DNA of 64,000 nt. It comes from an uncultured Alphaproteobacteria bacterium (GTDB lineage: Bacteria; Pseudomonadota; Alphaproteobacteria; MPNO01; UBA2964). Location: assembly GCA_951812775.1 (NCBI GenBank), contig OX638326.1, positions 2,429,391 through 2,493,390 of the forward strand, read 5' to 3'. The notes under the pieces are model-generated. The model did no database searches. It was not told the DNA's origin and worked only from the letters and a program-made list of their open reading frames with translations. This document shows, one piece after another, positions 50,273 to 53,991 of this stretch. The number at the start of each line of letters is the position of its first letter. The stretch's first letter is position 1. Position numbers and translations under genes: made by a program.

Positions 50273-52957
50273 TTATGCCGCTTCTTCTGCAATGTTGCGC
50301 AGCACATATTGCAGGATGCCGCCATGGCGGTAATATTCGACTTCATCCAGCGTATCAATCCGGCATCTGGTCGTAATATCTTCACTTGAGCCATCCGCGC
50401 GGGTGATCTTCACGGCAACATCCATGCCCGGTGTAATACCGCCCGCGACACCCGTAATATCGAAGATTTCCGTACCATCGAGATTCAACGACTGACGGCT
50501 TTGCCCGTCTTTAAACTCAAGCGGCAGTACGCCCATGCCAATCAGATTAGATCGATGGATACGCTCAAAGCTCTCCACGATCACAGCCTTGATCCCCAGC
50601 AGGTTTGGCCCTTTGGCCGCCCAGTCACGGGATGAGCCCATGCCATAATCCTTACCCGCGATGACCACCAACGGAATACCATCCTGTTGATAGAGCATCG
50701 AAGCTTCATAGACGGACATCTCCTTGCCGTCGGGCAGATGCTTGGTGAAACCACCTTCCGTGCCCGGTACCATCTCGTTGCGGATCCGGATATTGGCAAA
50801 GGTGCCGCGAGACATAACCTCGAAATTACCACGCCGGGCGCCGTAGGAGTTGAAATCCTCGGGCCGTATCTGGCGTTCCAGCAGGAAACCACCTGCCGGG
50901 CTGGTTTTTGGGAACCCACCGGCTGGCGAGATATGATCCGTCGTAACGGAGTCACCCATTTTAAGCAGAACCCGAGCGCCTTTGATATCTTCCAGCGCTG
51001 ACGGCTCGGGGCCCATCCCTTCAAAGAAGGGGGGGTACTGCACATAGGTGGAACCGTCATTCCAGGCATAGGTCTCACCCTGAGGTACCGCCATATTATT
51101 CCACTCATCGGAACCATCACCCACGGCGTCATAACGTGTACGGAACATTTCCGGCGTGATACAGGCACGGATCGTGTCCTGAATTTCCTGATTGGTCGGC
51201 CAGATATCCTTGAGATACACCGGATTGCCATCGGCATCCTCGCCCAACGCATCCGTCGTCAGATTGACATTTAGCGAACCGGGAAGGGCATAGGCGACAA
51301 CCAGTGGCGGCGAGGCCAGATAGTTGGCTTTGACCTGCTGGTGAACGCGGCCCTCAAAGTTACGGTTGCCTGACAAGACTGCACCCGCGACAAGATTACC
51401 GTCATCAATGGCATCAGCAACCGGGCCAATCAGCGGTCCGGAGTTTCCGATACAGGTCGTGCAACCATAGCCGACAACATTAAAGCCGAGCGCGTTGAGA
51501 TCGTCCTGCAGCTCAGCCGCTTCGAGATAGTCGGAGACCACCTGGCTGCCGGGTGCCAGTGATGTCTTCACCCAGGGTTTGACCTTCATACCCTTGGCAA
51601 CAGCGTTGCGCGCCAAGAGCCCAGCCGCCATCAAGACAGACGGATTTGATGTATTGGTGCAGCTGGTAATCGCCGCGATAGCGACATGGCCATCCTTCAT
51701 CGTGTAATCTTCGCCTTCAACCGCCGCTTCGCCCTTGCTGGCATCCCAGCTTGGCAGTTCGCTGGCGAAATTCTCCGGCATCTGCGACAAGGCGACACGA
51801 TCCTGTGGCCGCCGCGGCCCTGCAAGGCTGGGCTCTACCGTCGAAATATCCAGTTCCAGCGTGTCGGTGAAGATCGGGTCAGGGGAATTGGCATCGCGCC
51901 ACATACCCTGTTCTTTGGCATAAGCTTCAACCAAGGCAACCTGATCGGCATCGCGACCGGTCGCGTTGAGGAAGTTAATCGTTTCCGAATCAATCGGGAA
52001 AAAGCCGCAGGTCGCGCCATATTCCGGTGCCATATTGCTGATCGTTGCGCGGTCCGGCAGGCTGAGATTGTCGACACCCGGGCCATAGAACTCAACGAAC
52101 TTCGAAACCACGCCCTTGGCCCGCAGCATCTGGGTCACCGTAAGCACCAGATCGGTTGCCGTTGTACCTTCGGTTAGGGCACCGGTCAGCTTAAAGCCGA
52201 TGACCTGAGGCAAAAGCATTGAGATAGGCTGGCCAAGCATCGCCGCTTCCGCCTCAATGCCACCGCAACCCCAGCCCAGAACGGCGAGCCCATTGACCAT
52301 CGTGGTATGGCTATCAGTGCCCACCAGCGTATCGGGGTAAGCAACCGTCGCGCCGTCTTCTTCTGTCGTCCAGACCGTCTTGGCGAGATATTCCAGATTT
52401 ACCTGATGGCAAATGCCCATGCCCGGTGGCACAACGCGGAAGTTTGAAAAAGCACTCTGCCCCCAACGCAGGAACTCATAGCGTTCCTGGTTGCGCGAAT
52501 ATTCAAGTTGGACGTTTTTCTCAAACGCGTCGGGCGTGCCGAAATTATCGATCATAACCGAATGGTCGATCACCAGATCAACGGGGCAAAGCGGGTTGAT
52601 CTTCTGGACGTCGCCGCCAATCTTAACCATTGCTTCGCGCATTGCCGCCAGATCGACGACAGCCGGGACACCGGTCAAATCCTGTAGCAACACGCGGGCC
52701 GGACGAAAGGCAATCTCGTCATCAGCGCTTGGCGTGCCATCCCAGGATGCCGCTGCCTTAACATCATCGGCCGTGACGGAGCGGCCGTCTTCATACCGGA
52801 GGAGATTTTCCAGCAGCACCTTCATTGAATATGGCAGGCGGGCAATGCTGCCAACACCCTTCTTTTCAGCAGCCTTCAGGCTGAAATAGTCGAAATTCTT
52901 GCCATTTACAGAAAGCGTACGACGTACGCCTAAGCTATCATTGCCGGTAACACCCAC
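50273..52957 (-). CDS. acnA: Aconitate hydratase AcnA
   Basis: 894 residues, normal for the AcnA/IRP type. The [4Fe-4S] ligands are in [20 protein letters not shown] and [40 protein letters not shown] and [20 protein letters not shown] are further active-site segments. It interconverts citrate and isocitrate in the TCA cycle. AcnA-type proteins can bind RNA when the cluster is lost. The gene is divergent from the small RNA and ccm operon, a gene order common in Alphaproteobacteria. Confidence 0.97.
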
Positions 52958-53115
52958 GGCTATCTCCTCATTTTATTAGGTTTTTGGACCTGATTTTCAA
53001 ACGTGGCGCGAAAATAACGCCTAAACGCAGTATTTCTCAAGATAAACGTTACCCGCAGGCTACGCAAATCTCCCAAAAATAGGGTGAATTACCACAATAT
53101 TGCCTTATTTCAGCC
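52958..53115. promoter_or_regulatory. Divergent control region of acnA and the small RNA
   Basis: AT-rich gap upstream of acnA. It must hold the acnA promoter on the minus strand. No clear binding site was recognised, apart from the heat-shock-type promoter at its right end. Confidence 0.4.
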
Positions 53116-53143
53116 CTTGGTTCTGCGAAATAACATCCCATCT
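53116..53143 (+). promoter_or_regulatory. Strong heat-shock (RpoH)-type promoter of a small RNA
   Basis: CTTG (53116-53119), 17 nt, CCCATCT (53137-53143), preceded by CC. This fits both the enterobacterial sigma32 pattern (CCCTTGAA...CCCCATnT) and the alphaproteobacterial one. Start of transcription expected near 53150. Confidence 0.65.
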
Positions 53144-53149
53144 TAATAG

Positions 53150-53256
53150 TCCTAGCCCCCACCGGGGCACCCTCCCCCCCCGGTGTCCCACCAGCCCACC
53201 CATTGGGCTGGTCTCCCCTTAAGGCCGTCGGGTACCCCCCGGCGGCCCTTTTTTTT
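53150..53256 (+). ncRNA. Candidate trans-acting small RNA with a C-rich (anti-Shine-Dalgarno) loop
   Basis: About 107 nt with three hairpins. The first is CACCGGGG (53160-53167) with CCCCGGTG (53178-53185), presenting the loop CACCCTCCCC. The second is CCAGCCCA (53191-53198) with TGGGCTGG (53204-53211), loop CCCAT. The third is a terminator. The C-rich loop could pair with GGAGG ribosome-binding sites, like the CUCCUCCC-loop (cuckoo/CcsR-type) RNAs of Rhodobacter, which are also controlled by RpoH. No open frame of note lies within. Promoter, modular stems and terminator together make a convincing sRNA; its targets are unknown. Confidence 0.65.
53223..53256 (+). terminator. Intrinsic terminator of the small RNA
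   Basis: GGCCGTCGGG (53223-53232) pairs with CCCGGCGGCC (53238-53247, one G-T), loop TACCC, followed by C and eight T (53249-53256). Confidence 0.9.
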
Positions 53257-53343
53257 CGCCTCGCCAGAACGGGCTGGCTTTATTAAGGTGTCGCGCGGCC
53301 GCTTATGGTTAAGAGCCGCCAATTGGGGCAAGTTGCGGTGACA

Positions 53344-53991
53344 ATGCGTTTTTTCGGGGAAAATCTGTCCTGTATCCGGGGCGAGCGGCTGGTCTTTAGC
53401 GAGCTGGATTTCGCCATTGAACCAGGTGCCGCTTTGGTGCTTACCGGCAGCAATGGATCAGGCAAAACCAGTCTTTTACGCGTGATGGCCGGGCTGACAC
53501 GCCCGAGCGCCGGACAGCTCGGCTGGCAAGACGGGCCAATCACCGACGACCCCGAAACACATCACAGCCGACTGCATTATGTCGGGCATCTTGATGCCCT
53601 CAAGCCGGTTTTGTCAGTTCGGGAAAATCTGGCCACATGGTCACACCTCCATGGCGGCCCAGATAAAAAAATCACGTCAGCCTTAAAAAAACTGAGGCTG
53701 GAGGGATTTGAAAATATCCCTGGCCGCTATTTGTCAGCTGGTCAAAGACGACGACTTTCCCTCGCCCGATTGGTCGCCAGTGACGCACCGCTCTGGCTCC
53801 TTGATGAGCCGACCATCGCGCTTGACGCGCCGTCGGTCGATGCGGTCCGAAGCCTGATTGCCGAGCATCGTCGCAATGGTGGCATGGCGGTGATCGCGAC
53901 CAATGTGGATTTGGGTATAGCCGATACCAGTGAGCTTAACCTGCTAGATTTCGCCGCCGCCAATGAAGACATCTGGGAGGGCGTTACGTGA
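53344..53991 (+). CDS. ccmA: Heme exporter ATP-binding protein CcmA
   Basis: 215 residues. The Walker A is LVLTGSNGSGKTSLLRVMAG, the signature LSAGQRRRLSLARLVASDAP and the Walker B LWLLDEPTIALD. Start at ATG 53344 (MRFFGENLSCIRG), matching family length; an ORF from 53305 would add 13 residues. CcmA powers release of holo-CcmE from the CcmABCD complex at the inner membrane. First gene of the cytochrome c maturation operon; it overlaps ccmB by 4 nt. Confidence 0.94.
   Translation: MRFFGENLSCIRGERLVFSELDFAIEPGAALVLTGSNGSGKTSLLRVMAGLTRPSAGQLGWQDGPITDDPETHHSRLHYVGHLDALKPVLSVRENLATWSHLHGGPDKKITSALKKLRLEGFENIPGRYLSAGQRRRLSLARLVASDAPLWLLDEPTIALDAPSVDAVRSLIAEHRRNGGMAVIATNVDLGIADTSELNLLDFAAANEDIWEGVT

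Follow-up and report, generated by a model that had tools for sequence, protein, structure and literature searches.

Does the intergenic stretch between acnA and ccmA hold a small RNA gene of its own and, if so, what would drive its transcription and on what would the RNA act? The locus lies in a 64,000-nucleotide stretch of DNA, analysed as a whole and referred to here as the window, from an alphaproteobacterial genome assembled as a single contig of 4.15 Mb; most of its close relatives available in the public collection are MAGs from uncultured organisms. On one side, the small RNA gene is flanked by acnA (50273-52957, minus strand, start at 52957), and on the other by ccmA (plus strand), for which the ATG at 53344 is the conserved start; a start at 53305, which would give a longer open reading frame, was rejected. 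A promoter for acnA, TTGAGA-N18-TATTTT, is predicted at 53011-53040 on the minus strand, and its TTCTCAAG box is seen again in front of acnA in relatives. A previous, sequence-only reading of this locus had proposed a heat-shock-promoted small RNA with a C-rich loop and had considered stress control of the two neighbours conceivable. Comparison of sequences across the class indicates that the unit is a real small-RNA gene common to many alphaproteobacteria, in which the shapes of the hairpins are kept while their letters change. We consider it probable that its product is a stand-alone, trans-acting small RNA with its own promoter, a probable activator, and C-rich segments that would pair with Shine-Dalgarno regions.

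The gene occupies 53147..53256 on the plus strand and would give an RNA of ~105-110 nt, with an inferred 5' end expected near the tail word CUAGCCCC or GACCUCCCC. The components previously assigned to a complete unit (promoter, three hairpins, and a terminator with eight T) are all where they had been placed, and the predicted fold is much more stable than that of shuffled sequences (minimum free energy of -53.2 kcal/mol versus -35.6 ± 3.0 kcal/mol; z = -5.8; 0 of 200 as good). The RNA opens with an unpaired, C-rich 5' tail, UAGUCCUAGCCCCCACC (53147..53163), which is CUAGCCCC throughout the order, with GACCUCCCCUC in its place in many families elsewhere. The three hairpins had been predicted at 53160-53185, 53190-53212, and 53223-53247, and the register of the first was later corrected. 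The register of hairpin 1 that covaries in relatives is GGGGCACC/GGUGUCCC (53164..53189), in which 53164-53171 pair with 53182-53189 around a C-run loop, and all eight of these pairs are compensated among 22 copies. The register of the sequence-only reading, CACCGGGG/CCCCGGUG (53160-53185), lies four bases off the conserved one, and only in the window copy is it a close alternative by energy (-14.3 versus -15.1, a gap of 0.8 kcal/mol). Because the conserved hairpin is shifted by these four bases, the loop exposed would be the C-rich CUCCCCCCCC and not CACCCUCCCC; the loop sequence given previously, CACCCTCCCC, was thus not borne out, as the conserved register exposes a C-run.

Hairpin 2, ACCAGCCC/GGGCUGGU (53190..53212), is likewise compensated at 8/8 pairs, with 89% of cells paired in the 22 copies, and is followed by an unpaired, anti-Shine-Dalgarno-like linker, CUCCCCUUAA (53213..53222), which reads CCCUCCUA in relatives. 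The terminator hairpin, GGCCGUCGGG/CCCGGCGGCC, with a C and eight U behind it (53223..53256), has 10/10 pairs compensated and 100% of cells paired; a terminator scan also recovered this third hairpin (53223-53247), and the T8 run lies at 53249-53256. In one relative (G015), tandem, near-identical GC-rich hairpins with T-runs stand after the small RNA (L105 1565-1640) and make up a double terminator. While the stems vary freely among copies, the unpaired segments remain C-rich, in agreement with the C-rich character noticed in the window copy: over the 22 copies, C accounts for 44% of the tail, 69% of loop 1, 52% of the linker, and 59% of loop 3 (a range of 0.44-0.69 from which only the small loop 2 is excepted), compared with 36% of the paired positions.

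In a DNA search, four further genomes of the genus proved to carry the unit, the matched part being 87-93% identical. A covariance model built from the five genus copies only (R1) extended the set to additional genera of the order (E of 1e-6 to 1e-11), with copies whose identity is too low for detection by BLAST and which stand between acnA and ccmA wherever both genes are visible. The covariance of stems in relatives that had been called for was found: in an 11-copy alignment, 18 of 26 pairs had changed on both sides and 97% of cells paired, which none of 500 shuffles equalled, and with 22 copies, compensatory changes were present at 26/26 pairs, with 96.1% of cells paired. Since MAFFT mis-set hairpin 1 across genera, structural alignments made with the covariance model were used instead, and because such alignments lean towards the model, we quote two controls for the 22 copies, namely shuffles (67.7 ± 1.3% paired) and alignments in which the partner was slid (27-47%). 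For the class, the survey covered 80 genomes drawn from many families and, in each, the 600 bases that precede ccmA, where model R2 detected the unit at E < 0.001 in eight, four of them from one genus (G393, G316, G113, and G225) and the others G033, G324, G330, and G139. Model R3, with which the window copy scores 81 bits (E of 7e-13), found copies outside its training set among the candidates scored, both directly upstream of ccmA (G097 and G405) and not adjoining ccmA (G235, G130, and G401); only ten candidates per genome were scored in this class-wide genome scan, and absence from it therefore says little. An R3 match in G207 (L229) was rejected, since it lies inside a protein-coding gene, as judged from sequence. 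The host genome carries a single copy of the small RNA. Being conserved and covarying in the order as well as in other families, the unit is more than a lucky fold.

The predicted promoter, CTTG-N17-CCCATCT (53117..53144, plus strand; CTTG at 53117-53120 and CCCATCT at 53138-53144), is RpoH-like and overlaps the alphaproteobacterial sigma-70 form. All five genus copies carrying the unit have CTTG-N17-[CA]CCAT, G017 and L035 have CTTG-N17-CCCCATAT, G019 has CTTG-N17-CACAATAT, and near forms occur in G330, G209, and G010. No CTTG box was seen in G009, G022, G015, or the f91 family, and conservation of the box extends over no more than part of the order. In the host genome, groES and dnaK carry CTTG-N17-GCCTATAT and hsp20 carries CTTG-N17-CCCCATAT, an overall layout of CTTG-N17-nCCnATAT relative to which the spacer of the small RNA promoter is one base shorter. 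RpoH control of the small RNA is plausible because these three genes share its promoter layout. However, sigma-70 is a candidate as well: its alphaproteobacterial consensus, as given for NfeR1, has the same form (PMC10746234), and the exact pattern occurs at background level genome-wide (24 sites versus 18 for a reversed control). The RpoH control proposed in the sequence-only reading is thus partly supported. Elsewhere in the host genome, another RpoH-like site, CTTGACATAAGGCCGTAAAAACCCCATCT (L213; G000:C1:3352826-3352854, minus strand), is not within any long open frame, and the 250 bases downstream contain no start of an ORF of at least 70 aa; it could precede another small RNA.

The strongest regulatory signal is a conserved 24-bp element upstream of the gene, CCACAATATTGCCTTATTTCAGCC (53092..53115, plus strand), which the sequence-only reading did not contain. 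An unsupervised EM motif search of 23 upstream regions returned [TC]CACAATATTGCCAYAATTCGGCC, with a log-likelihood of 270 compared with 71-80 in ten shuffled controls. The element is present in 23/23 copies. For 22 of them, the distance from its start down to the modelled start of the RNA is 54-63 nt; in the remaining one (G017), the site chosen by the program is at -40, and the sequence also has one at the usual place. The window contains only one match, with 0.01 expected for a pattern derived partly from the window copy itself. Because the element is kept where the small RNA adjoins other genes (G235, G401, and G130), it belongs to the small RNA, for which it is probably the binding site of an activator. 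In several copies, the element takes the form of a direct repeat of 11 bp, CACA-N7-CACA, a layout like that bound by OmpR/PhoB-type regulators. In addition, GCC-N8-GCC occurs in the window copy (GCCTTATTTCAGCC) and in G002, G015, G017, and G019, with a near form in other copies, and PMC9731502 cites N-GCC-N8-GCC as the ChvI box of S. meliloti. An OmpR/PhoB-type or ChvI-type regulator may be regarded as a candidate for the element, and as a lead only.

The unit lies on the ccmA strand and directly upstream of ccmA in most copies, which would suit a cis-acting leader or attenuator in which terminator read-through into the ccm genes is tuned by the hairpins. We think this improbable, as the terminator is strong, with its T8, and an alternative anti-terminator pairing is not apparent in the predicted folds, and also in view of the copies that stand elsewhere. 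In G015, the unit remains 5' of acnA, with ccmA 2 kb further away. In G316 and its relatives, it stands before ccmA, and the flanking sequence examined gave no match to acnA; the loci at which it adjoins ccmA without acnA in the examined flanks are L111, L217, and L218. Neither gene is present in the flanks examined of G235, G130, and G401, where other genes adjoin the unit. Found without ccmA, without acnA, and without either, the unit is, on the evidence of these gene orders, a free-standing small RNA gene independent of both neighbours rather than a ccm leader. Its distribution also includes losses, mostly in smaller genomes. The unit is missing in the order members G005, G008, G011, G012, G014, and G021 and is degenerate in G026; within the genus, the stems and promoter are kept in the five copies, but G006 (L070), with acnA and ccmA intact, has lost the promoter and hairpins 1-2 and retains a remnant of the terminator. 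Because several order members lack it (G005, G006, G008, G011, G012, G014, and G021), the small RNA is dispensable, and such losses would also be expected of a functionless structured remnant or cluster of terminators. Neutral sequence, however, would keep neither the pairing, which survives changes on both sides at 26/26 pairs, nor the upstream element, which is conserved across families, and we therefore regard a remnant as very improbable indeed.

The RNA showed no special pairing with acnA or ccmA. When the C-rich segments were set against the start regions of the 62 window genes, the mean pairing energy was -11.0 kcal/mol versus -10.4 kcal/mol for random stretches, which is hardly better than random, and thus no specific target emerges among these genes. 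The target prediction suggested earlier gave no specific signal for either neighbour: by pairing energy, acnA ranks 18th of 62 and ccmA is ordinary, and given also that the unit survives away from either gene, the idea that it places its neighbours under stress control found no support. A trans-acting role is therefore likely, by analogy with NfeR1 and GsrN, and the RNA most likely works as an anti-Shine-Dalgarno small RNA in the manner of NfeR1/ar14. NfeR1 has three hairpins and redundant anti-Shine-Dalgarno motifs and silences mRNAs by base pairing (PMC10746234). By this analogy, transcription of the window RNA would begin at a stress-type promoter of its own, CTTG-N17-CCCAT, probably aided by an activator protein bound to the 24-bp element, and would stop at its own intrinsic terminator. 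Three rigid hairpins would keep the C-rich tail, loop 1, linker, and loop 3 single-stranded, and these segments could pair with the G-rich Shine-Dalgarno regions of several mRNAs and reduce their translation, as with NfeR1 (ar14). The same single strands might alternatively titrate a C-preferring protein, e.g., Rho, with no pairing to mRNA, and both the unspecific start-region pairing and the dominance of C in every unpaired segment but loop 2, while the exact base order drifts, are consistent with such a decoy. Nevertheless, linkers and tails retain the anti-Shine-Dalgarno-like words CCUCCCCUC and CCCUCCUA, beyond mere C-runs, and the similar alphaproteobacterial RNAs NfeR1 and GsrN act by pairing, so a protein decoy appears unlikely. 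Pairing with mRNAs, the mechanism we favour, might also be part of a larger scheme, which is bolder and at present doubtful: a widespread small RNA, ancestrally located by acnA-ccmA, could be the core output of one conserved activator (OmpR/ChvI-type or LysR-type) that reads the 24-bp element and could control a large set of mRNAs through its C-rich segments. If true, the small RNA would couple respiration and iron-using metabolism to redox or envelope stress.

No Rfam family reached its gathering score in the window or in six class members, and permissive scans gave only weak matches. Searches of mostly open-access papers, in their main text, gave no description of a small RNA between acnA and ccmA, and neither gene is mentioned in the main text of three S. 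meliloti small RNA surveys; the family is apparently undescribed. The S. meliloti RNA SmelC706/smrC45 ("SpeF"), which we take to be the speF leader, is listed with an RpoH1/2 promoter and was rejected as a syntenic relative, as nothing ties it to acnA-ccmA. The name SpeF is the one given to it in a review table. That the stems vary freely, whereas the C-rich segments and the promoter element are kept, directs attention to the binder of the element and to the messages touched by the RNA, and the alignments and model supply curators with material for an Rfam entry.

Among known systems, CcsR of Rhodobacter (RF02791, CcsR1) resembles the window RNA as a stress-induced alphaproteobacterial RNA with a C-rich motif in unpaired parts; no window match to it was reported at E up to 10, and one relative (L144) gave 22.3 bits against a cut-off of 65.3. 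The Caulobacter RNA GsrN has a C-rich loop that pairs with the G-tract of an mRNA leader (PMC5869019), although it activates katG and its BLAST homologues are confined to Caulobacteraceae. ChvR, also from Caulobacter, is activated by a response regulator and folds into three or more stem-loops, of which two base-pair with its target (PMC6237742), but it is specific to C. crescentus and lies upstream of recF/gyrB, and it is set beside the window RNA by description. The suhB/MmgR family (RF00519) shares a hairpin, a CUCCC linker, and a GC-rich terminator, while MmgR is 77 nt long and the window RNA scores 22.2 bits with the suhB model, below the 41-bit cut-off. Five other places in the host genome score 21-27 bits with this model and were rejected as copies of the small RNA, which is single copy. 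One suhB-like place (L022; G000:C1:1518163-1518248; 27.3 bits, below cut-off) has a strong terminator hairpin and a T-run and is possibly another small RNA or a gene terminator. Like the window RNA, ar14/NfeR1 (RF02344) has three hairpins with hypervariable stems, anti-Shine-Dalgarno-like unpaired segments, its own promoter, a conserved upstream activator element, and an intrinsic terminator (PMC10746234, PMC7143759). It differs in carrying CCUCCUCCC in each loop, where the window RNA has C-runs or CCUCCCCUC/CCCUCCUA, in occupying six loci in S. meliloti rather than one, and in having an LsrB box, TGCA-N6-GCAT, unlike the 24-bp element; its model gave no window match at E up to 10 and at best 33.7 bits among relatives (L164), below the 58.8 cut-off. 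Because the window RNA would act like the C-rich alphaproteobacterial small RNAs and yet is not recognized as ar14, suhB, or CcsR, it appears to represent a new family among RNAs of an already known type, adding an apparently undescribed, strongly covarying RNA family to a class known mostly from rhizobia, Rhodobacter, and Caulobacter.
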